Source: Pogonophryne albipinna
Lineage: Eukaryota; Chordata; Actinopteri; Perciformes; Artedidraconidae
NCBI GenBank assembly: GCA_028583405.1
Contig: CM053246.1
Coordinates: 27,948,557-28,012,556, forward strand
Direction of reading: 5' to 3'
Length of the DNA stretch: 64,000 nucleotides
The notes under the pieces are model-generated. The model saw only the letters and a program-made list of their open reading frames with translations, searched no databases and was not told the origin of the DNA. Numbering within the stretch: position 1 is the stretch's first letter; the number at the start of each line of letters is the position of its first letter. The translations under genes were made by a program, and so were the position numbers. Positions 10,288-57,908 of this stretch are shown one piece after another.

Positions 10288-10361
10288 CAGTGACGTGCGG
10301 TGAGGTTCATGGCTGGTGAGGCACTGACTCTTTCAGAATCAGATTTACAAATATTATATAT

Positions 10362-10703
10362 TTTGGCGGGGAAGGTAATTTTGGAGAAACCAGCTCGAGT
10401 GTGCTAGAATTTGAAAATACACAGCCCCTCCCCCAACACACACAAACGCGCACATGACCAATGAGGGCACGAGATAAGTTTGTGCACAGATGGAAGGCTG
10501 ACAGGCAGGTTATTTTAGCCGGGCCGGCTAAAATGAGTGGTCGTGCTTTTTACAGTACTACGGCTTCCACAGATGAAATGTTTTTATGTATTTTTTGTCA
10601 AAGCACTTAAGATATTCATTGCTATCGGGATATTAAGAGCATTCCATGGAATATAACAAAAAGTGTATATCGTGCCGGTTTCTCAAACTTACCTACCCCA
10701 CCT
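10362..10703. mobile_element. Nested TTAA-type MITE inside hAT copy A
   Basis: The right end reads ttacctaccccacct followed by TTAA (10704-10707). The left end is degraded here (ggcggggaaggtaa) but intact in the other hAT copy (see 35421-35760). The same insertion in both copies means that the MITE entered the progenitor hAT before it spread. Confidence 0.65.
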
Positions 10704-10852
10704 TTAATCGAAATATTCTGTTATTTTCAAAAGCTTTTTTAGTCTGATGCTTCGATTCATTTTAAACAGACCGTTCAACAAAAGGATACCCAAAATCTAA
10801 ATATTGGATTGTTCTCTCTTAGTAAGATCCCATTTTCATTACAAATGTGGTC

Positions 10853-11077
10853 TTACCTTGACTTGAAGATGAAGTCCATGCTATCCTTCTGGACAACAAT
10901 CTTTATTACTTTTTTGTAAAAGTCCTCCTTATCTCCCTCTAGTTTCAAAAGTCTTGTTTGTTGTTCGCGTCTACCGTCTCTGCGTAGAATAACAGTAGCA
11001 ACAAGAACCTGTGGGCTGACGTGTGCCCCCTTCAGTGCGGCAGAGGTTGTGGCTGCCTCCCCTGGTGCTTTTTTCAT
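10853..11077 (-). other. Exon-like 74-codon ORF inside hAT copy A
   Basis: An ORF starting MKKAPGEAATTS and ending DSMDFIFKSR is followed by a good splice-donor-like sequence (CAAG/GTAAGACC) that overlaps its stop codon. The composition (acidic and basic residues, few rare residues) looks more like protein than random AT-rich DNA. The second hAT copy carries the same segment with a 1-base deletion, so the frame is broken there. It could be an N-terminal exon of the lost autonomous transposase or a captured host exon. I do not recognise it. Confidence 0.35.
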
Positions 11078-11649
11078 TGCCGTTGTATGATGAGACCAGC
11101 GAGCCTAAATATCATATATACATGAAATAAGTTATTTAGAGACTATGGATGGCGAGGATAAATGTAATAAAGGGATCTACAAACATTACATTGGTGACAT
11201 ACAGTGAGATGGTGCAGGCATGCGCTTAGGGCCCGCTTTCCAGACAGTTTCTGTGGGGTGACGCATTCTGAGGTGAGGCAGAGCTCATCTGTGCCTCACC
11301 TCACCACACAGTAACTGGCTTAAGCGCGCTCACAAAATAAGTGCCCGCGCTAAATTAGTGCCCGTGCTCCAGCAAGTTACTGTGGTCTTCTGTGAGGCAG
11401 AGCTCGTCCCTGCCTCACTTCTCAATCTCATCGCTCCCCGTAGTTGTAGCGGAGCTCGGCAAAGTAGCCGATTTTTACTATAAAAAGCGATTGGAATCAT
11501 ACAGAAATCACATTTACAACACAGATCAGTGGACACATTTTATTATTATTATTATTTGTATTATTATTCTTTTTTTCCGTTACATTGGAGAATGACAAGT
11601 GAGGCTCTGCCTCACCTGCCTCCCCTGACCGCACGTCGCTGGTGTGTGA

Positions 11650-24904: not shown

Positions 24905-25248
24905 AAGCTGACTAACGTTAGTCTAATGTTATGTTTGACTCGTAAAGGCCCACAACATGAGTTAGCTCTCTGTGCAGTTAGTTCGTTCCGGGTTAGTAGC
25001 GGCTAGATAGCGGTGTTCTGCAGACGTAAACTAGCTACCATTCCAGCCAACATTAAATGCTGACAAACGTTAACTAACACACAGCTGGCGCCGCTAGCTA
25101 GGTAGCTAACATTAACTACTAACCAACCAAGCACGAACAAACCGCACGGAGAGCTATAAGATAGTTAGCACTACCAAAGTGCACAGAACTCAAGCTGCAC
25201 AACACACTACACAAACGTGGAATTAATTTAGCCAAAGTTAGTACATAC

Positions 25249-25502
25249 TTATCATTGTTCCCTCCACGAGAGACAAGGGGGTGCCTCCGCTTTAAATGCT
25301 CCAACATAGCTGTTGTGCTAGTGTGGTATGCCAACTCCATTTGACAAAGACTGCAAATAACAATGCCTTTGCGTTTTGGACTAAATTTAAAGTATTCCCA
25401 TGCTTTTGAAGACCTAGGGCGAGATGTTTTTGTTTGGGGGCTTTTTGCAGGGCTTCGTGCGCAATCCTGTGAGGAGGAGGTGGTAGCCGTTTCAGTCTCC
25501 AT
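25249..25502 (-). pseudogene. BED-finger exon, second of two in the hAT
   Basis: The segment starts [11 protein letters not shown]. The region with [12 protein letters not shown] and HLKRRH forms a BED zinc finger (C-x2-C, H-x4-H). It ends at a good splice donor (GATAA/GTATGT), so it looks like a coding exon rather than a chance ORF. An upstream in-frame extension reaches 25703. The rest of a hAT transposase is missing from the element. Confidence 0.7.
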
Positions 25503-25738
25503 TGTGTTTGAAGTGCGATTGCGAACTGCTTGTTGCTTTGGGTGACCCACGTGTGTGTGGCGATGCGTCGACGAGGAAATCTGTCGTCCACGAGATTTTG
25601 AAGTCGACGCGTCGACTAATATATATATATAAATACGTCTTACCTGTCCTGCTGTTTTGTGATCAAAACTAAAGTTGTGTTCAAGGACATGCAATTTAAA
25701 CATTGGCTAGCTACTGCTAGCTAGCTAGGTTAGTTGAC

Positions 25739-27331: not shown

Positions 27332-28913
27332 CACTGAACAAAAATATAAAAATGCAACACTTTTGTTTTTGCTCTCATTTTTCATGAGATGAACTCAAAG
27401 ATCTAAAACATTTTCTATATACACAAAATAACCATTTCTCTCAAATATTGTTTACAAATCTGAAAAAATCTGTGATAGTGAGCACTTCTCCTTTGCCAAG
27501 ATAATCCATTCCACCTCACAGGTGTGGCATATCAAGATGCTGATTAGACAGCATGATTATTGAACAGGTGTGCCTTAGGCTGGCCACAATAAAAGGCCAC
27601 TCTGAAACGTGCATTTTTGCTTTATTGGGGGGGGGGTCTGGGGGGGGGTCCGAAAACCAGTGCAACACATCTCCTTCGCATAGAGTTGATCAGGTTGTTG
27701 ATTGTGGCCTGTGGAATGTTGGTCCACTCCTCTTCAATGGCTGTGCGAAGTTGCTGGATATTGGCAGGAACCGGAACACGCTGTCGTATACGCCGATCCA
27801 GAGCATCCCAAACATGCTCAATGGGTGACATGTCCGGTGAGTATGCTGGCCATGCAAGAACTGGGATGTTTTCAGCCTCCAGGAATTGTGTACAGATCCT
27901 TGCAACATGGGGCCGTGCATTATCATGCTGCAACATGAGGTGATGGTCGTGGATGAATGGCACAACAATGGGCCTCAGGATCTCGTCACGGTATCTCTGT
28001 GCATTCACAATGCCATCAATAAAATGCACCTGTGTTCGTCGTCCATAACATACCATAACCCCACCACCACCATGGGCCACTCGATTCACAACATTGACAT
28101 CAGAAAACCGCTCACCCACACGACGCCACACACGCTGCCCTGAACAGTGAAAACCGGGATTCATCCGTGAAGAGAACACCTCTCCAACGTGCCAGACGCC
28201 ATCGAATGTGAGCATTTGCCCACTCAAGTCGGTTACGACAACGAACCGGAGTCAGGTCGAGACCTCGATGAGGACGACGACCATGCAGATGAGCTTCCCT
28301 GAGACGGTTTCTGACAGTTTGTGCAGAAATTCTTTGGTTATGCAAACCGATTGTTGCAGCAGCTGTCCGAGTGGCTGGTCTCAGACGATCTTGGAGGTGA
28401 ACATGCTGGATGTGGAGGTCCTGGGCTGGTGTGGTTACACGTGGTCTGCGGTTGTGAGGCCGGTTGGATGTACTGCCAAATTCTCTGAAACGCCTTTGGA
28501 GACGGCTTATGGTAGAGAAATGAACATTCAATTCACGGGCAACAGCTCTGGTGGACATTCCTGCTGTCAGCATGGCAATTGCACGCTCCCTCAAAACTTG
28601 CGACATCTGTGGCATTGTGCTGTGTGATAAAACTGAACATTTTAGAGTGGCCTTTTATTGTGGCCAGCCTAAGGCACACCTGTGCAATAATCATGCTGTC
28701 TAATCAGCATCTTGATATGCCACACCTGTGAGGTGGGATGGATTATCTCGGCAAAGGAGAAGTGCTCACTATCACAGATTTTTTCAGATTTGTGAACAAT
28801 ATTTGAGAGAAATGGTTATTTTGTGTATATAGAAAATGTTTTAGATCTTTGAGTTCATCTCATGAAAAATGGGAGCAAAAACAAAAGTGTTGCATTTATA
28901 TTTTTGTTCAGTG
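27332..28913 (-). mobile_element. Tc1-type transposon with long inverted repeats
   Basis: The termini CACTGAACAAAAATATAAA and their inverse are flanked by TA (27330-27331 and 28914-28915), as expected for Tc1/mariner. The inverted repeats are long: about 270-280 bp at each end match in inverted orientation, including the internal 'aggtgtgccttaggctggcc' block. The transposase lies on the minus strand between them. A G-rich expansion (about 27627-27652) has disturbed the transposase C-terminus. Confidence 0.95.
27622..28615 (-). pseudogene. Tc1-family DD34E transposase, one frameshift
   Basis: This cut-and-paste transposase starts MPQMSQVLRERAIAML, followed by a helix-turn-helix (STRAVARELNVHFSTISRLQ), an RRPR hook-like motif, and a second helix-turn-helix region. 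Catalytic residues are seen: D in FTDESRFSLF, D in QHDNARPH, and E in SPIEHVWD, with 34 residues between the last two (DD34E). The first reading frame runs 28112-28615. The rest is in another frame (27622-28227), so a 1-2 base indel lies near 28140. The C-terminus runs into the G-rich expansion and ends in an unusual proline-rich tail. The protein is otherwise full length, about 330 residues. Confidence 0.93.
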
Positions 28914-32765: not shown

Positions 32766-32987
32766 AAATAATATAGCTTATATAATCAATTTATAAAATA
32801 TGATACTACTTTAACTCTAGTACTCTAACTATTTAACTGTGTTTGTTACTTCAGTAAAAGGTGTGAATACTCAAACCACTGCTGTCAGCACAGAGCTGGG
32901 ACACTGTGTTTACTTCATTTCACCATGATTTGCCGTTCATCCAAATGGGCTTGAACAGAGAACAAATGATGAAATCCAATGTGTCAG

Positions 32988-33395
32988 TGTTGCGACCTGG
33001 CTCAAAAGGCCACAACAAAAAGGAGACACAACATGTCAATGGGTAGGTAAAGGTGTTTATTTAGGACAAACAAATCAAATCAAAACCAGTAAAGTATGAG
33101 GTGTGGATGTCAGTGGTATCAGTAATGTAAATGCAGGGTGAGGATTGTATGGACATGTATGTGTGTGAGAGTGTTGAAGTGCACAAAGTAAAGCAACTGA
33201 AGAAACTCCTAATATACTCCACAAAAGCGGTGTGCCTGCAGGGAGAAGCAGAGAGAGCACAGAGAGGAGCAGAGAGGCGTTAAATAGCTGCAGGACACCA
33301 GACCCAGGTGCCCTGAGTTACTGCAATCACCAATCACCACAGCACAGACAGGACAGCCACCTCCTCTCTACTGATGAACCCACAGGGGCATCACA
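32988..33395 (-). repeat. 3' LTR (left copy)
   Basis: About 408 bp. The purine tract (read on minus, ending AAGGGGGGGG) abuts its inner edge. The element's ORF stops about 28 bases inside it. Confidence 0.9.
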
Positions 33396-35335
33396 GCCCC
33401 CCCCTTAAGACGGGGCCCCAAAGGGATCCACGACAACCCAATATCCTCCTTAACTCCAGTTTTTTTACTTTCCTTCTTAGGACTGGAGGACGCTCCTCCT
33501 CCGCCGCTGTCCCACTCCTCCTTGGGTTGGCTGGCGTTGAGCCACAGCATGTAGGCGCTCATCGGCCTCTTGGGTGCGCCGACCTCCTTCGGCCTCCTCT
33601 TCTTCGGCCTCCTCTTCTTCGGCCTCCTCTTGTTTGCTTTGCAGGGTTTCCTCTCTTTCTTCTCCTTCACCACTTTGACTGTCTTCTCCTTCTTCTTTGT
33701 CTCGATCTCAAAGTCAAAGGACCGTGCTGGACCACATTTTCCAGACTCCGAAACAGGTAGGTCAGTAGACATCCTACGGCTCTGCGCACGCGTAACAGTA
33801 TAAACTGGAGACACACTTGGAAATTGCAAACCGCTCTCATCTGGCTCTACAGATGCCAACGGCCTGGAAACCACCACAGGCGGTGGCACACCCGCCCACA
33901 CAGCACTACCAGCTAGATCGTTGCCCAAAATCATCTGTACCCCATCAAGTGGCAACGCGGGAAGCACGCCGATAGACACAACTCCCCGTACCAGCTCACA
34001 ATCCAGCATTACTGTATGACGTCGCACAGGAATCAAGCCCATCTCCATGCCCCTCATCAGCACAAAATCCCCAGTCTCTGTCTCTGACGAAAAAGGCAAC
34101 ACTGACTCAACAATAAATGAGTATCTAGCTGCTGTGTCACGCAACACCTTAATCGGAACATACTTGTCACTACCGACCATTGATACAACGGCTTCCGTTA
34201 TGAACGGCTCAAAAACAGAACCCACCTCCAAGTCGGCACAAACCAGCTTCTTAACAGGCACCATGCCCGATCTTACACCCTGCGGCTTTTTAATCAAAAC
34301 GGCAGAACACATGGCTGGAGCATGTGATGAAGAACGAGGCTTCCCCTCAGGTTCCAGCAACGGACACCGCTCCTTCCAATGACCCTCTTCTCGGCAATAA
34401 TGACATTGGCCCACTCTGGCGCCCTCGGATCGCCTTGGACCTGCAAATCTACGGGAGGAGCCTGGTGAGAACTTTGCACCACCGCGGGAATAGCCACCAT
34501 CTTCTCCACGTCTCCAATCACCCCTAGACCACTTCTCTGTAAAACTGTCCTTATGGGTCAACACAAAATCATCTGCTAATTCAGCAGCTCTGAGCGCGGT
34601 GGAAGGTTTCTGCTCATTTACATAAGTGGCCACACGCTGAGGGATAACATCTTTAAATTGTTCCAATACAATGAGTTCACAAAGACCTTCAAAACTGGCA
34701 ACCTTTGCTGCCGCACACCAGCGCTGAAAATGAGAAGTCAAATCACGGATAAACTCCACATGTGTCTGCTTATCCCCCTTGACCCAACTTCGGAACTTTT
34801 GACGATACGCTTCAGGAACCAGTTCGTATGATTTTAACACTGCTGATTTTACTCTGGCATAGTCCAAAGCATTTTCGCCACAAACAGCTGAATAGGCCTC
34901 CTGTGCTCGCCCAGTGAGTACACACTGAAGTAACAGCACTTTGTCCGAATCTGACCAGTTTCTTGCCTCTGCTATGCGTTCAAATAGGGTAAAAAAAATG
35001 TCAGGGTCACGCTCATTGAACTTTGGCACTAACCGCAAGTAAGAAATAATCTCGCCACTACCTGATGCCGACCTATCAGAACCATCCTCCACCAGAGAAA
35101 GCTTGCCCTCTCCAATCAGCCGTAATCTAGCATGTTCCACCTCACATTTCATCTTTTCCACCTCCAGCACCTTCTCCACCTCTAAACGCTTCTCTACCTC
35201 CTGCTGCTGACCCCTCAGCTCCAACTGCAACTTCTCCTGCTCCAACTTCTCCTGCTCCAACCTCAACTTCTCCTGATCAAACTGCATGGCCAAAAGCTCC
35301 TTTTGCTGCTCGAACGTCAAACCAGCTGTCTGAAC
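33368..35335 (-). CDS. Gag-protease polyprotein with SSRP1/HMG-box-like C-terminus (main part)
   Basis: The open frame covers about 650 residues. In order: a Glu/Lys/Gln-rich coiled coil (residues 1-70); a helical gag domain of the Gmr1/SCAN-related kind (about 90-260); a CCHC zinc knuckle CHYCREEGHWKERC (about 305); a retropepsin-like region with DTAARYSFI instead of the usual DTG (about 395) and ILGNDLAG (about 470); then a basic stretch with three tandem RRPKK units; then APKRPMSAYMLWLNAS (about 595) and KEEWDS. The last two match the HMG box of SSRP1 closely. After the HMG-like piece the frame runs through the purine tract and ends inside the LTR. The gag N-terminus lies beyond the hAT at 36671-36903, and the frames on the two sides agree. 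What I see are the motifs. That the tail came from host SSRP1 is inference. Confidence 0.82.
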   Translation of the reverse strand, partial: VQTAGLTFEQQKELLAMQFDQEKLRLEQEKLEQEKLQLELRGQQQEVEKRLEVEKVLEVEKMKCEVEHARLRLIGEGKLSLVEDGSDRSASGSGEIISYLRLVPKFNERDPDIFFTLFERIAEARNWSDSDKVLLLQCVLTGRAQEAYSAVCGENALDYARVKSAVLKSYELVPEAYRQKFRSWVKGDKQTHVEFIRDLTSHFQRWCAAAKVASFEGLCELIVLEQFKDVIPQRVATYVNEQKPSTALRAAELADDFVLTHKDSFTEKWSRGDWRRGEDGGYSRGGAKFSPGSSRRFAGPRRSEGARVGQCHYCREEGHWKERCPLLEPEGKPRSSSHAPAMCSAVLIKKPQGVRSGMVPVKKLVCADLEVGSVFEPFITEAVVSMVGSDKYVPIKVLRDTAARYSFIVESVLPFSSETETGDFVLMRGMEMGLIPVRRHTVMLDCELVRGVVSIGVLPALPLDGVQMILGNDLAGSAVWAGVPPPVVVSRPLASVEPDESGLQFPSVSPVYTVTRAQSRRMSTDLPVSESGKCGPARSFDFEIETKKKEKTVKVVKEKKERKPCKANKRRPKKRRPKKRRPKEVGAPKRPMSAYMLWLNASQPKEEWDSGGGGASSSPKKESKKTGVKEDIGLSWIPLGPRLKGGAVMPLWVHQ
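33396..33412 (-). promoter_or_regulatory. Polypurine tract of the LTR element
   Basis: On the minus strand a short run ending AAGGGGGGGGC lies directly before the left (3') LTR, the normal place for plus-strand priming. Confidence 0.7.
33450..33700 (-). other. SSRP1-like HMG-box segment in the retroelement ORF
   Basis: The segment encodes a basic linker (VKVVKEKKERKP), three tandem 15-bp repeats (ttcggcctcctcttc, about 33588-33632), the 16-residue motif APKRPMSAYMLWLNAS at about 33531-33580, and then KEEWDS and a Gly/Ser/Lys tail. In vertebrate SSRP1 the same motif opens the HMG box, KKEEWDRKAED lies near its end, and a Gly/Ser/Lys-rich tail follows. Here the middle of the box (helix 2 and its flanks) is missing, so it cannot fold as a complete HMG box. 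Confidence 0.7.
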
Positions 35336-36670
35336 CAGTGACGTGCGGTGAGGTTCATGGCTGGTGAGGCACTGACTCTTTCAGAGTCAGATTTACAAAT
35401 ATTATATATTTTGACCTTAAAGGTGGGGTAGGTAATTTTGGAGAAACCAGCTCGAGTGAGCTAGAATTTGAAAATACACAGGCCCTCCTCCAACACACAC
35501 GAACGCGCACATGACCAATGAGGGCACGAGATAAGTTTGTGCACAGATGGAAGGCTGACAGGCAGGTTATTTTAGCCGGGCCGGCTAAAATGAGTGGTCG
35601 TGCTTTTTACAGTACTACGGCTTCCACAGATGAAATGTTTTTATGTATTTATTGTCAAAGCACTTCAGATATTCATTGCTATCGGGATGTTAAGAGCATT
35701 CCATGGAATATAACAAAAAGTGTATATCGTGCCGGTTTCTCAAACTTACCTACCCCACCTTTAATCGAAATATTCTGTTATTTTCAAAAGCTTTTTTAGT
35801 CTGATGCTTCGATTCATTTTAAACAGACCGTTCAACAAAAGGATAGCCTACCCAAAATCTAAATATTGGATTGTTCTCTCTTAGTAAGATCCAATTTTCA
35901 TTACAAATGTAGTCTTACCTTGACTTGAAGATGAAGTCCATGCTATCCTTCTGGACAACAATCTTTATTACTTTTTTGTAAAAGTCCTCCTTATCTTCCT
36001 CTAGTTTCAAAAGTCTAGTTTGTTGTTTGCTCTACCGTCTCTGCGTAGAATAACAGTAGCAACAAGAACCTGTGGGCTCATTTGCGCCCCCTTCAGTGCG
36101 GCAGAGGTTGTGGCTGCCTCCCCTGGTGCTTTTTTCATTGCCGTTGTATGATGAGACCAGCGAGCTTAAATATCATATATACGTGAAATAAGTTATTTAG
36201 AGACTATGGATGGCGAGGATAAATGTAATAAAGGGATCTACAAACATTACATTGGTGACATACAGTGAGATGGTGCAGGCATGCGCTTAGGGCCCGCTTT
36301 CCAGACAGTTTCTGTGGGGTGACGCATTCTCACCACACAGTAACGGGCTTGAGCGCGCTCACAAAATAAGTGCCCGCGCTAAATTAGTGCCCGTGCTCCA
36401 GCCAGTTACTGTGGGCTTCTGTGAGGCAGAGCTCGTCCCTGCCTCAATTCTCAATCTCATCGCTCCCCGTAGTTGTAGCGGAGCTCGGCAAATTAGCCGA
36501 TTTTTACTATAAAAAGCGATTGGAATCATACAGAAATCACATTTACAACACAGATCAGTGGACACATTTTATTATTATTATTATTTGTATTATTATTCTT
36601 TTTTTCCGTTACATTGGAGAATGACAAGTGAGGCTCTGCCTCACCTGCCTCCCCTGACCGCACGTCGCTG
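35336..36670. mobile_element. Non-autonomous hAT element, copy B (inside gag)
   Basis: The same element as 10288-11641: CAGTGACGTGCGG at the left and CCGCACGTCGCTG at the right, 1335 bp. A perfect 8-bp target duplication GTCTGAAC (35328-35335 and 36671-36678) lies in the retroelement's gag. It differs from copy A by scattered substitutions and small indels. It keeps the intact left end of the nested TTAA element, which copy A has lost. Confidence 0.95.
35421..35760. mobile_element. Nested TTAA-flanked MITE (piggyBac-like ends)
   Basis: AGGTGGGGTAGGTAA at the left is the inverse of TTACCTACCCCACCT at the right. TTAA lies directly outside both (35417-35420 and 35761-35764), as for piggyBac-type insertions. 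It is 340 bp with no ORF of substance, though a 93-codon ORF (35518-35799) crosses its right end. Confidence 0.8.
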
Positions 36671-36903
36671 GTCTGAACCACTACCGGCATGAACCCTGCC
36701 GCACCAGACTCACTCTTCTGCAACACCCCCTGCTCAAACAAAGATGACACAATGACAGTTTTAATGTCATGTTTCCGCTTGCTCCCCACAACAGCAATGT
36801 CATAGTGCTCTGCTATTTCGACCAACTGCGCCTTCTGGCAATTATCTAAGAAAGACACTGAGGGCGCATCCACAAATGCTGACAAAGAAGTCATAATAAC
36901 CAA
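36671..36903 (-). pseudogene. Gag N-terminus of the LTR element, cut off by the hAT
   Basis: The frame starts at MVIMTSLSAF (or the second Met) and continues through FLDNCQKAQLVEIAEHYDI and SKRKHDIKTVIVSSL, a SAP-like helical region often found at the start of gag in Gmr1-like fish elements. It runs 77 codons and two bases to the edge of the 8-bp duplication. The main part at 35335 downwards picks up the third base of the same codon, so the hAT is the only lesion between the two parts. Confidence 0.8.
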
Positions 36904-37463: not shown

Positions 37464-37872
37464 TGTTGCGACCTGGCTCAAAAGGCCACAACAAAAAGGA
37501 GACACAACATGTCAACGGGTAGGTAAAGGTGTTTATTTAGGACAAACAAATCAAATCAAAACCAGTAAAGTATGAGGTGTGGATGTCAGTGGTATCAGTA
37601 ATGTAAATGCAGGGTGAGGATTGTATGGACATGTATGTGTGTGAGAGTGTTGAAGTGCACAAAGTAAAGCAACTGAAGAAACTCCTAATATACTCCACAA
37701 AACCGGTGTGCCTGCAGGGAGAAGCAGAGAGAGCACAGAGAGGAGCAGAGAGGCGTTAAATAGCTGCAGGACACCAGACCCAGGTGCCCTGAGTTACTGC
37801 AATCACCAATCACCACAGCACAGACAGGACAGCCACCTCCTCTCTATTGATGAACCCACAGTTGGCATCACA
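37464..37872 (-). repeat. 5' LTR (right copy)
   Basis: About 409 bp and nearly identical to the left LTR, which points to a recent insertion. Target duplication GTCAG follows it. Confidence 0.9.
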
Positions 37873-37877
37873 GTCAG

Positions 37878-42014: not shown

Positions 42015-44814
42015 ATGGACCATTCTCTCCCTCACACCAGAGGAGTCAGGGACTCGGAGGCTCGGCTATGCCGCTGCGGGTTTAAGATTTCAGGCACAGA
42101 CTCACACCAGGTCTGCTCGTCCTGCCTCGGGCTGGAACACGCCCGGGAGGCTATCGATAACCCCGGCTCGTGCGGGCATTGTACCCGCTTCACCATGAAG
42201 AGCCTCCGCCGACGGTTAGCACGCCAAGCTAGCTTGTCGGGACAGGACCCCCTCATGTCCGCTGATTCGCCGTCCGGCAATCAAGACATGGTGGCGTCCG
42301 CCGCAGAGATTGAGCCCCGCGCTGTGTCAGACTGGGGCTCAACAACGGCGACAGCCGCTGAACCGGAGCCCCACGCCGTTTCAGGCTGGGACCCGGTGGC
42401 GGCAAGAGCCGCGAGAGCGGAGCCCCGCGCTGTGTCAAGCTGGGGCTCCCAATTGGACCTCACCATGGTTCAGGGCCGGACTGGGACAATAAGTCAGGCC
42501 GGGAATTATACACCCAGCCAGGCCACTACCAGTTTTTTGTGCCATTTTGCTGGATTTATTTGTCAATATTTACAGCGTTGCTGCCCATAGTGATAGCCCT
42601 AGTTGAAATCTACTACCCAATAATAAACATATGGACATGGATTATTATTTAAAAAAAATGTGCAAATCTATTTAGGAACCTATTCATGTGAACATATTTT
42701 AAGTGGGGGTGGACCTCAAACCCTATAGGGGGGTCCGGGGGCTTGCTCCCCCGGTAAGATTTTTTTTTTAAATGTTGGACTTAAATGCATCAATCTGGTG
42801 CATTTTGAGGGGGAAATAAAGAGACTACACCCATATGAAACAGAACTGTATACATTTAAATAATCATAAAATCATAAGAACATGGCTATAACCAATAACA
42901 TACCATATCCAATATGAAAAAACATTGAAACTTATATATTTATTTGTTTTTGGTTCATTTATAGTTGTGAGTGTGTCTGTGCTCCTGAATCAGCCTCACC
43001 TGTCTCCCTCCTCTCCCCCCTGCTCCTCTTTGAGGCAGCAGCAAAGACTAGTTTTAGCTCTCAACAAGTTTTAAAAGTTTATCTTACCTTTTTTCACCTA
43101 GTTAACATTTTATTTGTATTATTCATGCATATTTTACTAATCGCTCCCCCCTCAAATGGAAATATGTGTTTACATAAATGGTGATCAAACCGTTTGAGAC
43201 CCACTAAGAACTTAGACTAAGTTAACTATCTAGATTCTAAACACTCAGAGAGTCCTTTACCTCACCTGAGCTGTAGTTATCTCTCAGTCTGACAGCAGAG
43301 GACTCTCCCCCCACCTTGTTGTTGAAACAGCTCCTTATATCCATTCGCGCAGCTAGCTAGCACCAGATGCTAACAACAACAATACACGTAACCCCCTGAT
43401 CCCACCGGAAGCGTCTGCGCTGCGTGATGATCTGTATGAAAGTGGCCATGTCGGCAGGCCAAATCATGTAGACCGCCAGTCACCCTCTGTGAGGCAGAGT
43501 CAGACCCACATTTGCGCAGCGTTGCGTTCACAATACGTGTAAAAAAAAATCCTCAGGCCAGCAGGCCACTTAACAGGCCAGGCCATCGGGAAACCTCCCG
43601 GTCCTCCCGATGACCAGTCCGGGCCTGCCATGGTTCCACCCGCGGAGGATGTCCTGGAGTTGGACTACATGGAGGACGAAGAGGATGCCTCTGAGTTCCT
43701 CCTGTCTGACTCGGATGGGGATGACATCTTCGTTTCATCGGCTCAGGCTGCAAAGCCGGGAGCGATGTCCGCTCACCCGGGCGAGAGTACACCAGCTTCG
43801 CCCGTCCTAAGCATGGACTTGCAGGCCGTGTGTCAACGCGCTGCGTCCAGGCTGGACATCCCATGGCCTGAAGTGGCCAAGGAGACCTCCAGATCTCGCT
43901 ACGAGGGGAAGAACTTGCCCCAAGCAGCGAGGACGAAGAGGCAGCTCCTTCCAGTCTTTCCGGAGATGCTGGACGAGGTGTCGGTCTCGTGGAGAGACCG
44001 TCCCTTCAGCAACAAGGCCCCAATCCAGGGTGCCTCCTCCCTGGACTGTGACGGTATGGAGAGGCTCGGCCTGCTCCGCATGCCGCCCATGGAACCGCTG
44101 GTGGCAGCCCACCTCCAACCGAGGCTGGCTTCGACACCAAGCAGGAACCCCATGCTACCGGCAAAGGCAGACCGGTTCCAGTCAGCGATGACCGAACGGG
44201 CCTATAAAGCCGCAGCTTTGTCCGCCAGGGCTCTCAACGTCTCCTCGCTGCTGACCGCCTACCAGGCGGAGCTTTGCGAGGACATGTCGAGCAGACCTGA
44301 GCCTGCCGTGTGGGACGAGATCGCAGCGATCACGGACATTTGCCTCCGTGTGCAGCGCTGCGCAGTCCAAGCCACGGGCAAAGCGCTGGGAATGATGGTG
44401 GTACAGGAGAGAGCCAGGTGGCTCAACCTGACCAACCTTCCAGACCGGGAAAAAGAGGATGTTCTGGACATGCCTATTGTTCCCGAGGGCATATTTGGCT
44501 CCGCTCTAGCTTCAATGCAGCTGAGGTGCGAGTCAAAAAGGAAGGGAGACGAGGCTCTCCAGCTCTGTCTCCCCCGAAGGGTCCAGCCGCCACCTCCAAT
44601 GGTCCCGCGGCAGGCCTTCACCCAAGCTGTCTCACGTCCTGTCCGGTTCAAAATACCGAAGCAGCAGAGACCGCAGCCCGTCCCGGGTCCCCAGCCCAGA
44701 CACGAGGCAAGAGGGAGCTGGCCAAGAAAATCTCCGGTCCCGGCAGCTGCCGCTCAAGCGCAGCCGACCCAGGTTTTCAGCCACCAGGCGAGGAAGAAGA
44801 AGCGGGCGGCCTGA
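42015..44814 (+). pseudogene. DIRS gag, split by a hAT insertion
   Basis: The first part, 42015-42470, starts MDHSLPHTRG and has a cysteine cluster (CRCGF, CSSCLG, CGHC) that could bind zinc, then Arg-rich and repeated 'EPRAVS.WGS' blocks (three copies). The second part, from 43636 to 44814, is acidic at first (ELDYMEDEEDASEF) and basic and proline-rich at the end, ending ARKKKRAA. The codon boundary falls exactly at 42470 on the left and at 43636 on the right, so the frame agrees across the insertion. Together about 545 residues would be encoded. The ATG at 43630 lies in the target duplication and is not a real start. Its assignment as gag rests on position and composition. Confidence 0.8.
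42471..43627. mobile_element. Non-autonomous hAT inserted in DIRS gag
   Basis: The ends CAGGGCCGGACTGG and CCAGTCCGGGCCTG are inverse over 14 bp with one mismatch. A perfect 8-bp target duplication CCATGGTT lies at 42463-42470 and 43628-43635. It is 1157 bp with no transposase ORF. It has a different terminus from the other hATs in the window. Confidence 0.95.
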
Positions 44815-44835
44815 CAGCCTCCTCTCCTCTCCTCG

Positions 44836-47232
44836 ATGAAGGAGCTGGAAGTTCCCTGTTCCCCAGCTCCAGAGCACGTTCCAGTGTTGGATGCTCATGT
44901 GTTTTCAGGGTGCCACCATGCCCCCATCTTCCCGCCGCCTCGAGTGATGCCAGAACGTCATCCTCAAGTTCGCGCCATCAGGGAAATGGACTTAACATCA
45001 AAGACAGCAAGTTCCGCTGCCTGTTTAAGTCACACAAACACATGTCATCATTGTTGTTTCAAAATAAATCATTTTCCACTGTCGTTTCCAGGCTTGAAGC
45101 CAAGGGCGCAGTCAATAAAAATGAAAAGAAAAACAATAAAACCAATAAACAGTCTGTCGTCTGCCCCTCTTTTGAGAGCGGCTACGGCCTCTCTCAAAAG
45201 GCGGACAATAGACGGGATTGTGAAGGCACCACCGCCACGCGCATGCGCAGTGTCGGCCGGGGTTGTCGACCTGGGGTACCACCGTGTTCAGACACTAGAG
45301 GGCCCCATAACACAACAAATAGAGACACTGAGGGCAGACGACAGAGCTGTGACATCTCCGCTCGCTTTGAGAAGCGAAAGGTGGAGGATGCTCACAGATT
45401 CTGCTTGGGTTTTCAAGACAGTAACACGGGGCTACAGGCTCCAATTCGCTGTCACCCCCCCTCACTTCTCGGGCATTCTGTATTCACAGGCCCGGGGAGA
45501 GTCGGCCCATATTCTAGAGCAAGAGATTTTCTCGCTACTAGAAAAGAAGGCTATATCGATAATACCCGCCGAACAGAGTCAGAGCGGCTTTTATTCCAAG
45601 TATTTCCTCGTTCCCAAACGGGGAGGGAACGGAATTCGGCCTATACTAGATTTGAGAGCTCTGAACAAATATCTCAAAAGATACAAATTCAGAATGCTCA
45701 CTCACACATCTCTGTTGCGTCTCGTGCGCCAAAACGACTGGTTCACATCAGTCGACCTGAAAGATGCGTATTTCCACATCCCAGTATATTACCCACACAG
45801 GAAATATCTGAGGTTCGCCTTTCAGGGTGTCTGTTACGAGTACAGAGTACTTCCCTTCGGTCTGTCTCTCAGCCCACGAGTGTTTGTACGGTGTACGGAA
45901 GCCGCGATAGCCCCGTTAAGACAACAGGGTATTCGCCTGGCAACTTATCTGGACGATTGGCTCCTTCTCGCACAATCGGAGCAAGAGGCTATTACGCAGA
46001 CGAATGTCCTCGTAAAACACCTGCTCGACCTGGGTTTTGTAATAAACACAGAAAAGAGCATGTTGTCTCCAGCCCAGACTGTACTCTTCCTGGGCCTACG
46101 CCTGAATTCGGTGCCCTTTACAGCCCGCTTGTCAGCAGAGAGAGTGAAAGCCTTCAGGGCTTGCCTCGCTCATTTCCAGCCACGCAAATATGTTCTCTTC
46201 AGATCATGTCTGCGGTTGCTGGGGCTCATGGCGTCAGCCATTCTGGTGGTACGACTGGGACGCTTACACATGAGGGAGTTTCAGCGCTGGGTAGCTGCCC
46301 TCAGATTGGACCCCGCGCGTCATGGCGCGCGGAGAGTGATGGTCACTATGAAATGCGTAATGGCTCTGCGCCACTGGCTACACCCGACTTTTCTAGTACG
46401 GGGCGTGCCTATGGGTGCTGTCCTATCGCGGAAGGTGGTCACCACAGACGCATGTCTGACGGGCTGGGGGGGTATATACGAAGGTCGACCTGTGAGGGGT
46501 CTCTGGAGCAGAGACCTCCAACGGTCACACATAAATTATCTGGAGCTTTTAGCGGTGTTCCTCACCCTGAAACGCTTTCTGCCTTTTCTCAGAGGACATC
46601 ATGTCCTCGTGAGGACAGACAACACGACCACAATATCGTATATAAACCGCCAAGGGGGTTTGCGTTCTCTCCAGTTACACATGCTGGCACGCAAACTGAT
46701 CTTATGGAGCTGCGGACGTCTCCTCTCTCTGAGAGCGACGCACGTACCAGGAGTGATGAACCTCGGAGCAGATCTGCTGTCCAGAGGTGCACCACTATAT
46801 GCAGACTGGACTCTACATCCAATGATTGTGAGTCAGCTGTGGGTGCGTTACGGCCGAGCCGCGGTAGATCTGTTCGCATCAAAAGAAAATGCTCAATGTC
46901 AGCTGTTCTTTTCAATGCGCGATTTAAACGCACCGTTAGGCATGGACGCGCTCGCGCACGTTTGGCCTCCGGTCCTTCTGTACGCGTTCCCACCCCTGGC
47001 TCTGATACCCCCAACTCTGGCCAGAGTGAGAGAACAACGCCACACACTTAACCTGATAGCTCCGCACTGGCCTGCAATGTACTGGCTGGCGGAGATATAT
47101 CAGCTGCTGTGCGGGCAGCCGTGGCAGCTCCCACTACGCAGGGACATACTGTCTCAGGCGGGGGGGGCGATCTTTCACCCACACCCAGAGCGCTTGGCAC
47201 TATGGGCCTGGCCCGTGAGTGGTACAATCTGA
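44836..47232 (+). CDS. DIRS pol: reverse transcriptase, RNase H and C-terminal methylase-like domain
   Basis: Open frame of 798 codons. The first 200 residues are low-complexity. The reverse transcriptase follows: FLVPKRGGNGIRPILDLR, then SVDLKDAYFHIPV, then LPFGLSLSPRVF, then the catalytic YLDDW box, then FLGLRLNS. RNase H comes next (TTDACLTGWGG; LELLAVFLTLK; RTDNTT; GADLLSRG). The C-terminal 150 residues (DLFASKENAQC, LGMDALAHVW, YAFPPLALI) correspond to the region that has been called a Dam-like methylase in DIRS elements. The real start may be upstream of, or internal to, the Met at 44836. It overlaps the recombinase ORF by about 124 bases in another frame. No stop or frameshift is seen. 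Confidence 0.93.
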   Translation: MKELEVPCSPAPEHVPVLDAHVFSGCHHAPIFPPPRVMPERHPQVRAIREMDLTSKTASSAACLSHTNTCHHCCFKINHFPLSFPGLKPRAQSIKMKRKTIKPINSLSSAPLLRAATASLKRRTIDGIVKAPPPRACAVSAGVVDLGYHRVQTLEGPITQQIETLRADDRAVTSPLALRSERWRMLTDSAWVFKTVTRGYRLQFAVTPPHFSGILYSQARGESAHILEQEIFSLLEKKAISIIPAEQSQSGFYSKYFLVPKRGGNGIRPILDLRALNKYLKRYKFRMLTHTSLLRLVRQNDWFTSVDLKDAYFHIPVYYPHRKYLRFAFQGVCYEYRVLPFGLSLSPRVFVRCTEAAIAPLRQQGIRLATYLDDWLLLAQSEQEAITQTNVLVKHLLDLGFVINTEKSMLSPAQTVLFLGLRLNSVPFTARLSAERVKAFRACLAHFQPRKYVLFRSCLRLLGLMASAILVVRLGRLHMREFQRWVAALRLDPARHGARRVMVTMKCVMALRHWLHPTFLVRGVPMGAVLSRKVVTTDACLTGWGGIYEGRPVRGLWSRDLQRSHINYLELLAVFLTLKRFLPFLRGHHVLVRTDNTTTISYINRQGGLRSLQLHMLARKLILWSCGRLLSLRATHVPGVMNLGADLLSRGAPLYADWTLHPMIVSQLWVRYGRAAVDLFASKENAQCQLFFSMRDLNAPLGMDALAHVWPPVLLYAFPPLALIPPTLARVREQRHTLNLIAPHWPAMYWLAEIYQLLCGQPWQLPLRRDILSQAGGAIFHPHPERLALWAWPVSGTI

Positions 47233-48260
47233 ATACAGTGGGGCTCCCTCAGAAGGTGATAAACACTATTCAGAGTGCAAGAGCTTCCTCCACCAGGTCT
47301 CTCTATGACTGTAAGTGGAGGGTGTTTGAGGAGTGGTGCCTTCAAAAAGGACACATCTCTTTTCAATGTCCTGTCAGGGTGATTTTATCATTTCTACAGG
47401 ACTTAATTGATAAACACAGAGCTTTCTCTACGATCAAAGTGTACCTGGCTGCTATTGCTGCATGCCATGTGGGCTTTGAGGGAAAGACGGCTAGCCAACA
47501 TCCCTTGGTCTGCCGTTTTATGAAAGGGGCTCGCAGGCTCCTCCCTGTTTCCAGGTCACTGGTGCCCTTATGGGACTTGGCAGTGGTTTTAGATGGGCTC
47601 ACTCGACCTCCATTTGAACCCCTGGAAGAAGCTGACATGAAACACCTGTCACTGAAGACAGTGCTGTTACTGGCTCTGGCATCTGCCAAGCGAGTCAGTG
47701 ACATTCATGCGCTCTCTGTACATCCTTCATGCACTCAGTTTGCCCCGGGGCAAACGAGAGTGTTGCTGAAGCCCAACCCTGCCTTTATACCTAAGGTGGT
47801 TGGCTCATGTACCCCCATTGACATTGTGGCATTTCCCCCGCCGCTGTGTTCCTCTGAGGAACAGCGGCCGAATTTGCTGTGTCCAGTGCGTGCTTTACGC
47901 ATCTATATGGACAGGTCAAAAGAGTTTCGTTGTAATGACCAACTCTTTGTATCCTGGGCTAACCCTCAGAAGGGCAAGCCCGTTACCAGGCAACGGCTCT
48001 CCCACTGGATTGTGGAAGCGATTGCTCTGGCTTATACGAGTCAGGGTTTGCAGGCACCAACGGGCCTGCGTGCTCATTCTACTCGTGGACTGGCTACATC
48101 CTGGGCTTTGTTCAAGGGTGTTTCCATCCAAGACATTTGTGCAGCAGCGAGCTGGTCCTTGCCGCTCACTTTTGTCCGCTTTTACAGGCTAGATGTCTCT
48201 GCTCCAAGTGTGGCCCGCGCAGTGCTGGGCCCCGTGTTGAGACAGAGTTCTACCTGTTAA
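47109..48260 (+). CDS. DIRS tyrosine recombinase
   Basis: Open frame of 383 codons; translation may begin at 47109 or at the later Met at 47202 (MGLAREWYNL). The N-terminal part resembles a SAM-like core-binding domain (RSLYDCKWRVFEEWC ... FLQDLIDKHRAFSTIKVYLAAI). Catalytic residues of the tyrosine recombinase family are visible: Arg in ASAKRVSDIHAL, the H-x2-R in AHSTRGLATSWA, and Tyr in TFVRFYRLDV. It replaces an integrase: it joins circular DNA copies to target sites without target duplication. The frame is intact to its natural end (LRQSSTC). Confidence 0.95.
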   Translation: MRAAVAAPTTQGHTVSGGGGDLSPTPRALGTMGLAREWYNLNTVGLPQKVINTIQSARASSTRSLYDCKWRVFEEWCLQKGHISFQCPVRVILSFLQDLIDKHRAFSTIKVYLAAIAACHVGFEGKTASQHPLVCRFMKGARRLLPVSRSLVPLWDLAVVLDGLTRPPFEPLEEADMKHLSLKTVLLLALASAKRVSDIHALSVHPSCTQFAPGQTRVLLKPNPAFIPKVVGSCTPIDIVAFPPPLCSSEEQRPNLLCPVRALRIYMDRSKEFRCNDQLFVSWANPQKGKPVTRQRLSHWIVEAIALAYTSQGLQAPTGLRAHSTRGLATSWALFKGVSIQDICAAASWSLPLTFVRFYRLDVSAPSVARAVLGPVLRQSSTC

Positions 48261-55733: not shown

Positions 55734-57908
55734 TCAAATGTTGACATCCTTACTACCTTGTGGTTTATCAAGGTTGTTGCTGTCTTGATGGTTCTGCTTA
55801 TTGAGGGCGTCCAATGCCGTCTGGGTCTCCTTCGGTTCCTCTATGGAGCAGTTGGACACTGCATTAGCCACTAAGCAGAACTTGCGTAGGAGGATCTCTC
55901 TGAGGAGCAAATAGACCCATGGGTCCAGGATCTGGTTGAGGGAGGCCAAGCGGATTGCTGTGAGGAAAAAGTTACAGTCTAACTGGACGTCCCGGCTAGA
56001 GTTACGACTGGAGGTCACTGCTGTTGAGTTGCACTCGTGGGAAGATACCTGGTGGGAGATCATCCTCAGCATCAGCACCTGAAAGGGAAGGCAGGCACAT
56101 GTTGTTTGTACCACTAGAGAATAATAAGGACAAACTATCTTCTTCACTCTATCTTCTTTTTGTCGCTGCTTTTAATTGAACTATTCATATCTTAGACTGC
56201 ACTGTAACTTTTATCCATGTATTTTTTCTTTTAATGTTTCTTTTATTCTTTTTTCTTTTTAATGACTGATTTTAAATGCCATTTTCTTAATGTCTTTCAT
56301 TTTTTGTAAAGCACTTTGAATTGCCTTGTGTTGAAAAGTGCTATATAAATAAACTTGCCTTGCCTTGCCTTCACTCAAAATGTAACATTGAGAAAGCCTT
56401 TCAAATGGTTATGCACACTTGATTACTGAAATAATACTTCTTATATATTAAATGTCACAAATCTCACCACAGCCGTGAGCAGCTATACTGAATCAAACTA
56501 GGAAAGCATGATGTTCACGCTCTAGGTGCTCACGCTCTGTCATCACTGTCGCTTCTAATAATATCTTTGGGACTATTAAACATGTGCCTGACAATGCATG
56601 ACCTCATAACAGACTGAGCAGACCCCAACCAGGACTCAGATAAGTGGATTGCTCCTTAATGGAAAATATCACCAGCATTTAAAAGGATCATACATGACAG
56701 CATTTATGTGAGTGGCAAGTGTGGTTTGTGTGTGTGCGAGATAAGAGTAAAATAGTGTGAGATAGTGAATAGATTTTTAAGGAGAAAATATAAGGATGTG
56801 CAGCGTTTGCTCTTGCTTTCTGTCGAAACATTTCCACATATAAAGATCTGCAAGTGACAATAAAATAAATTGATCTGTGAATAAAGGCACTGGGCAATTT
56901 ACTATAAAAGCTTTTACTGTATGAAAAGAAACAAGCATCTTTAGAAAATATACTGTATGTTAAATCTTTCTTATATCCTCAATTTCATTTGGCCATAGGA
57001 ACTAGTGAATGCATGCTGTAAGAAAGTTAAAGGCTGAGTCGCCTATAAAAACATACCAGCAGAGGAGACCAGCATATAAGAAGGACGCACATAATCCCTA
57101 ACAGCTGAACGACGGTCTCCGTGGTGAGCCGTTCCCACTGCTTTGAAGACTGAGAAGTGCCAGACTTTGTTTTACACCGGATAATTAAGCCACGGATTGT
57201 CACTACATTGCAGGAAAGTGTAACAAGCAGAGAGAAAATCCCAAGTACAGCAAAAGTGATGGCGAAAAATATATTGCCCGGGACTTCCCTGTCCCCCGTG
57301 CTGATAAAGCACCAGGTGCCCGGCCACTGGCGCGTATATTCCCCGACCCCTGCAATGGGCAGCAGCGCAAAGAGCAACACAAGACACCAGATGACAGCCA
57401 AAGTCTGCTTTGTCACACTTGTCTTCATGTGATTGGAGTACCAGTGTGGATTTGTTATCGCCAGAGCCCTTTCAATTGCCATGGCGCTGGCCAAGAAGAG
57501 AGAGCACAGGCCAAAAGTTGTCATGCACACACCGAAAAAACCGCATAATTTGCCCGATGAGTCGATGCGCTCCCACTTCAGGTCCGCCCTGTAAACTGAT
57601 ATCACTATTGGACTTGTCAAAAGCTGTCCAAACAAGTCAGTTAACGCCAGTGATCCAATGCAAAGCAAGAAAGACTTTTTCCTTTTATTTTCCTTCTTTT
57701 TGTAAGATACATACACCAGAATAAGAGCTAATGTGTTGCCCACCATGCCAGTGATCATCATGGCTATAGGGAAACCAACTGATACAGATCCACAACTGGA
57801 GTTTTTTGTGGCATTGCTTTCGCGCAATGACCTGGAGACGTTGAAGTCCAGCATCTCTCCAATCAAGTTTTTCAACCCCCCTACAGAATCACAGCCGTCC
57901 TTGTACAT
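55734..57908 (-). CDS. ptger3: Prostaglandin E receptor EP3 (two coding exons)
   Basis: Rhodopsin-type GPCR for prostaglandin E2; in vertebrates EP3 couples mainly to Gi at the plasma membrane. Exon 1 is 57908-57057 (284 codons, phase 0) and ends at donor CTG/GTATGT. Exon 2 is 56078-55734 (114 residues plus stop) after acceptor CTTTCAG. Together they give 398 residues, the usual EP3 size. Visible features: N-glycosylation sites NVS, NAT and NSS in the extracellular N-terminus; [20 protein letters not shown] (TM1); [16 protein letters not shown] (TM2); ERALAI in place of DRY; the prostanoid-receptor loop motif [26 protein letters not shown] (TM6); and [17 protein letters not shown] with the ligand-binding Arg (TM7). 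The tail after LLRKFC is 45 residues, acidic and Asn/Gln-rich. A LINE end lies in the 978-bp intron. Confidence 0.96.
56150..56372 (+). mobile_element. LINE 3' tail in the ptger3 intron
   Basis: Same family as the LINE at 54095-54836 but with about 210 bp missing: 'gctgcttttaattgaa' joins straight to 'ctattcatatctta', and the same 'ttgccttgtgttgaaaagtg ... aaacttgccttgcc' end follows. It lies antisense to ptger3. Confidence 0.9.

Follow-up and report, generated by a model that had tools for sequence, protein, structure and literature searches.

We conclude that the LTR element in the Pogonophryne albipinna window (the whole stretch of 64,000 nucleotides analysed here, C5:27948557-28012556 in a 1.073-Gb genome) is almost certainly one degenerate member of an LTR retrotransposon family of notothenioids that is non-autonomous, present in many copies and recently mobile. 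In this family, pol was replaced by spliced SSRP1a sequence, probably through a template switch, and the lost enzymes would be borrowed from related elements. The capture of host SSRP1 in place of pol had been proposed in the original prediction, and it agrees with what we found: SSRP1 is the best match, the exon junctions are spliced, and the breakpoints are common to many copies. The capture is larger than was seen at that time. It dates back to an ancestor of this copy and has since been trimmed in steps. The parts of the element are as follows.

32983-32987, no strand: target site duplication GTCAG, one side, from the letters
32988-33395 and 37464-37872, minus strand: the two LTRs that bound the element, total length 4885 bases
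32988-33395, minus strand: 3' LTR, which holds the ORF stop codon at 33368-33370
33396-33448, minus strand: 3' end of the element and polypurine tract adjoining the 3' LTR, common to an integrase-bearing element (L055) from about 33446
33449-33508, minus strand: SSRP1 piece D, SGGGGASSSPKKESKKTGVK (SSRP1a 618-621 and 635-650), spanning a host intron position
33509-33523, minus strand: SSRP1 piece C, KEEWD, spanning a host intron position
33524-33529, minus strand: QP scar, six bases, where the HMG-box centre is deleted
33530-33694, minus strand: SSRP1 piece B, basic linker and HMG-box start (SSRP1a 517-562), spanning a host intron position and holding an expansion of KKRRP repeats
33695-33724, minus strand: SSRP1 piece A, RSFDFEIETK, with all 30 bases as in the host gene
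33737-35320, minus strand: Gag (SCAN, CCHC knuckle) and protease-like region, from Pfam and about 90% identity with integrase-bearing elements of the same genome
35336-36670, no strand: hAT-like DNA transposon within gag, from its terminal inverted repeat, the letters and a second copy at 10288-11641
36679-36903 (about), minus strand: N-terminal part of gag severed by the hAT-like insertion, from tblastn against the N-termini of P0121, P0131 and P0132
37450-37461, minus strand: primer binding site TGGGGGCTCGTC, from the letters, just inside the 5' LTR; integrase-bearing elements L053 and L054 have it too
37464-37872, minus strand: 5' LTR, 98.8% identical to the 3' LTR
37873-37877, no strand: target site duplication GTCAG, other side, from the letters

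The element thus carries the marks of an LTR retrotransposon: a near-identical LTR pair (4 substitutions and one 1-base gap), a target duplication, a polypurine tract and a primer site, which we take to be of the tRNA-Pro type. A complete element with LTRs, GTCAG duplications and a tRNA-Pro-type primer site was what had been described before, and coordinates and letters agree with that description. Its ORF, on the minus strand at 33368-35320 with the last codons and stop inside the 3' LTR, is likewise real, but the listed TTG is not the start codon of the family because the hAT-like insertion cuts gag. This insertion makes up 1335 bp of the element's 4885 and is flanked by 8-bp duplications (GTCTGAAC; 35328-35335 and 36671-36678). 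It splits gag near its start; therefore, the window copy is broken.

The hAT-like sequence is itself a non-autonomous 1.3-kb transposon whose two window copies are 94.6% identical, with an inner inverted repeat TTAAAGGTGGGGTAGG at 35417-35440 and 35741-35764. Elsewhere in the window, a probable DIRS-type element lies at 43630-48260; matches to reverse transcriptase (5.7e-27) and RNase H (2.5e-05) fall in its ORF at 44836-47232, and the ORF at 47109-48260 has no Pfam match and looks tyrosine recombinase-like by eye. On the minus strand are two overlapping ORFs of a Tc1/mariner-like transposase (27622-28615; DDE_3, 8.1e-13, in the first), an ORF with a BED zinc finger (25119-25703; 1.9e-12) that is perhaps hAT transposon-derived or a derived gene, and a seven-transmembrane receptor exon (57027-57908; 7tm_1, 2.1e-26), prostanoid receptor-like by eye and probably part of a host gene.

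Upstream of the SSRP1 pieces, the ORF reads as the gag, CCHC knuckle and protease that had been predicted. Pfam places SCAN at ORF residues 169-258 (3.8e-18), the CCHC knuckle (0.011) and an HMG-box match covering profile positions 1-18 only (0.0055) fall below the Pfam cut-off, and the protease-like (DTA) region sits between the knuckle and the HMG-box start and aligns with relatives. In tblastn searches of the window with eight integrase-bearing database relatives, no pol was found: the proteins match gag and protease only and stop between 33737 and 33782. Nor was a pol domain found in ten further element ORFs of at least 60 codons, in which BIR (0.06) and SNARE (0.017) matches below the cut-off were taken as chance. 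In 16 other copies with paired LTRs, the LTRs stand about 2700 bases apart (2683-2761), which leaves no room for pol.

The predicted loss of pol is also supported by comparison with elements of the same genome that carry integrase and reverse transcriptase. A genome search with the integrase protein P0124, in which 74 of 6373 candidates were scored, gave 75 integrase matches, many in frames of at least 1500 codons. Aligned with the hybrid, the best ten integrase-bearing elements (L043-L052) all show about 90% identity as far as hybrid base 1584, and the SSRP1 part starts at base 1597, about 12 bases after this identity ends. L043 encodes integrase, then reverse transcriptase, then RNase H; in L044, reverse transcriptase and RNase H, the two domains looked for, are both present. 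The ends of two integrase-bearing elements (L053-L055) have a primer site and polypurine tract as in the hybrid. Their LTRs are about 83-96% alike where they match those of the hybrid, and some 125 bases of its LTR have no counterpart; in the L053/L055 element, both LTRs are identical across 287 bases. This partial likeness means that the helper is related and not identical. Integrase-bearing relatives are, from these alignments, the probable parents and helpers of the hybrid. One scan of viral contigs found no relative. An integrase that precedes reverse transcriptase and RNase H, a feature of autonomous Gmr1-like Gypsy elements, is absent from the window copy, which has none of the three; the hybrid is thus a derivative and not a member of that group. 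Judged by sequence, the family derives from a Gmr1-like Gypsy element.

For the remainder of the ORF, SSRP1 is the best cellular match in a protein search, as anticipated. Among solved structures, the best match of the tail was SSRP1 (2.9e-6) and the best other protein was HMG-D (0.0046). This search spoke against another HMG protein as donor, and so did RSFDFEIETK, a stretch that is not part of the HMG box; that reading was rejected. The predicted SSRP1 pieces were borne out as four ordered pieces, of which RSFDFEIETK had been missed; the deletion of the HMG-box centre and the three 15-bp linker units (33584-33634) also stood. Identities to SSRP1a of Pseudochaenichthys (P0004), an icefish, are 9/10 at residues 387-396, 18/18 at 517-534, 26/28 at 535-562, 4/6 at 592-597, 5/5 at 617-621 and 13/18 at 635-652. 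An extra piece at 348-355 (3/8 identical) was regarded as chance. P0004 ranked first among 116 comparison proteins (the 120 listed minus four element proteins), followed by Cottoperca and Eleginops. At ten diagnostic positions, where P0004 differs from both of these, the element has the P0004 state at nine; residue 644 alone has the outgroup state. No N-terminal SSRP1 domains and no complete HMG box were found in the window tail, as an SSRP1 gene or pseudogene would have, only pieces from about 387 to 650; pooled over copies, the captured range is about 387 to 651. One could suppose that a basic tail resembles SSRP1 by chance or convergence, given that Lys, Arg, Ser and Gly are abundant in much of it. 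However, 216 of 224 aligned bases are identical to the spliced host gene, and the tail scores 344 against P0004 where 500 shuffles average 104 and peak at 157; we regard chance as ruled out, with a probability that is negligible.

The host SSRP1a gene itself (L022) lies at about C3:26388890-26399294 in the same genome. Its introns of 95, 967 and 75 bp map within pieces B, C and D, and all three are missing from the window element; therefore, spliced mRNA was the source. Spliced exon-exon junctions had been named beforehand as support, and the alignment to the spliced host sequence shows them. The intron-less junctions AAGGAG^GAGTGGGAC and TCCTAAGAA^GGAAA occur unaltered in the window as well as in all 20 other copies read. 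At the third junction, the window is continuous without the intron, with altered bases; the window string occurs in none of the 20 copies, whose proteins are continuous there. Exon edges taken from gaps between SSRP1 isoforms were too noisy, and the host gene was used instead. In the host sequence, the segment deleted between pieces A and B runs from one copy of ACAAAG to another, and the QP scar is an AACC remaining between deletions of 20 and 67 bases; both may reflect slippage of reverse transcriptase. At the right junction of the hybrid (AAGGAGGATATT), the host AAGGAGGAG and the partner TGGATATT share GGA. A Chaenocephalus aceratus gene model (P0141) lacks SSRP1a 596-650, and the limits of this gap coincide with exon edges of the host gene close to pieces C and D.

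A search of the genome with the tail returned at least 153 matches, a lower bound since 150 of 575 candidates were scored. Among the 150 matches listed, 97 lie in frames of at least 650 codons and one has a stop within the match. We read 20 copies, all picked from matches in frames over 700, a choice that favours intact, young copies. All four SSRP1 pieces and the QP scar are present in each of the 20, with the tail in frame, so that breakpoints common to many copies, which a copy search had been expected to reveal, were found. Full paired LTRs are present in 16 of the 20 (the other four have incomplete LTR matches), and the pairs differ by no substitution in six copies, one in five, two in two, and three, four and five in one copy each. 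Exact 5-bp duplications flank 13 of these 16 (the exceptions are L025, L032 and L033), and all 13 differ from one another, which speaks against tandem or segmental duplicates in place of separate insertions. The hybrid has thus moved as a unit after the capture. A second group that keeps IKAVE...QEF comprises 21 matches to SSRP1a from 590-593 to 626 or beyond. Tail matches of this subfamily cluster locally on C2 (129808-493369) and C14 (6815834-7076718), which suggests later segmental duplication there.

The tail also occurs in nine database proteins, the eight named ones from four families of Notothenioidei. A first search (337 proteins, 120 listed) found P0001 of Pogonophryne, P0002 and P0003 of Gymnodraco, and P0060; a second (14 proteins, six read) added four proteins from Champsocephalus esox (P0138, P0139, P0140 and P0142), encoded on four contigs that differ in length, and the Trematomus protein P0143. 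Outside the window species, the copies are known from predicted proteins, in which an intron placed by the gene model may look like a deletion. The left junction is common to eight of the nine; P0143 begins inside SSRP1. P0001, P0002, P0003 and P0138 read the QP scar in frame. In P0139, P0140 and P0142 it is out of frame, and 20 of 22 residues there agree with window frame 2. P0060 has no HMG box. P0143 keeps SSRP1a 435-458 and HMG positions 1-61 of 69 (1.2e-21), and its C-terminal end is the 3' end of the element (14 of 18 residues, window frame 1). Thus, this Trematomus bernacchii protein, annotated as a FACT complex subunit SSRP1-like, is probably an element copy.

These observations suggest the following course. 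Inside a particle, an ancestral reverse transcriptase would have switched from element RNA to a spliced SSRP1a mRNA and back near the 3' end, leaving SSRP1 in place of integrase, reverse transcriptase and RNase H. A switch of template to an mRNA packaged in the particle has been put forward as a model before, as outlined in the available part of PMC5408686. The hybrid would then have made its own Gag-protease and borrowed integrase, reverse transcriptase and RNase H in trans from related elements, and the captured part would have shrunk stepwise as the KKRRP linker expanded. The same final order would result if an SSRP1 retrocopy had inserted into a complete element that later lost pol by deletion, with no template switch, and the longer SSRP1 piece in P0143 could be read this way. 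This route would need two rare events and an in-frame junction, we see by eye no poly-A beside the window pieces, and the right junction falls inside the SSRP1 coding part at the GGA of both partners; we consider it very improbable.

In a working chimeric Gag, the basic segment and HMG start of SSRP1 would bring particles or integration complexes to chromatin and so replace a role lost with integrase. For such a function speak the in-frame tails of all 20 copies read (chosen for long frames), the single stop among the 150 listed matches, the high copy number of the family, the multiplied KKRRP unit in the window, P0001, P0060 and icefish proteins, and a mean tail pN/pS below 1 (0.61; 66 pairs of 12 distinct tails, averaging 1.4 silent and 3.5 other differences). 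Constraint on the tail looks weaker, however, than on Gag-protease (means of 0.61 vs 0.27, the latter over 190 pairs; the tail has few sites, and the pairs are not independent). The HMG box is moreover incomplete in the window copy and in each of the 20 others, gone in P0060 and out of frame in P0139, P0140 and P0142. We therefore think a working chimeric Gag unlikely. Unlikely, too, is the wider proposal that a retrotransposon family in Antarctic fishes uses a captured histone-chaperone segment as a working part of Gag that aids its way to chromatin, has kept and multiplied KKRRP, has shed other SSRP1 sequence and has reached high copy number on the enzymes of its parent family. Gag-protease looks constrained and the tail less so. 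Constraint on the SSRP1 part seems weak or absent, as for a passenger, and this is a more likely role for the tail than that of a working DNA-binding domain.

Capture of cellular genes by LTR retrotransposons is already known from maize Bs1 and from retroviruses. Literature searches covering part of the matching papers returned no report of an SSRP1-capturing element or family, and those on SSRP1 gene structure returned nothing useful. In the present case, a single genome contains the donor gene, the integrase-bearing relatives and more than 100 hybrid copies, which gives direct access to breakpoints, splicing, later trimming and selection and makes parasitism on the parent family testable. 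Repeat pipelines that drop repeats resembling host proteins (an example is described in the accessible portion of PMC13131655) may hide such families. Annotators should also be warned by the Trematomus SSRP1-like gene record, which looks like an element copy.

Integrase before reverse transcriptase marks Gmr1 elements. The hybrid resembles Gmr1-like Gypsy elements in its SCAN-type Gag, CCHC knuckle and protease, and its closest genomic relatives have integrase before reverse transcriptase; unlike them, it has SSRP1 instead of integrase, reverse transcriptase and RNase H. The vertebrate SCAN domain originated from a Gmr1-like Gag, according to the part of PMC3424704 available to us. Some LTR retrotransposons of bdelloid rotifers have additional ORFs and captured extra coding parts (PMC5408684, in its accessible text). 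As far as that text goes, those ORFs stand alongside pol, whereas SSRP1 replaces pol in the hybrid.

Oncogene-transducing retroviruses fuse host cDNA to Gag, lose pol and need a helper. The hybrid shares the fusion of host cDNA with Gag, the loss of pol and, probably, the need of a helper, but it is a retrotransposon in which no envelope was seen, its captured gene encodes a histone chaperone subunit, and it spread in the germ line. Maize Bs1 reportedly lacks reverse transcriptase. Like the hybrid, it is, as far as the available account goes, an LTR element with captured host gene segments. These come from three host genes, none of full length (PMC13317346, available portion). As expected of a gene-transducing, Bs1-like element, host sequence lies inside the LTRs in place of element genes, and the captured sequence is spliced, with two junctions exact. 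Unlike Bs1, the hybrid combines a fish Gmr1-like Gag-protease with a single host gene (SSRP1a); its matches in one genome number at least 153, and related integrase-bearing elements are found alongside. LTR-mediated retroposition of mRNA was described by Tan and co-workers in zebrafish, mosquito, chicken and Drosophila, as reviewed in the available text of PMC5408686. There, as far as that review goes, host mRNA is likewise joined to LTR element sequence by template switching; the hybrid differs in that it multiplied as a family and kept a constrained Gag-protease in an in-frame fusion.
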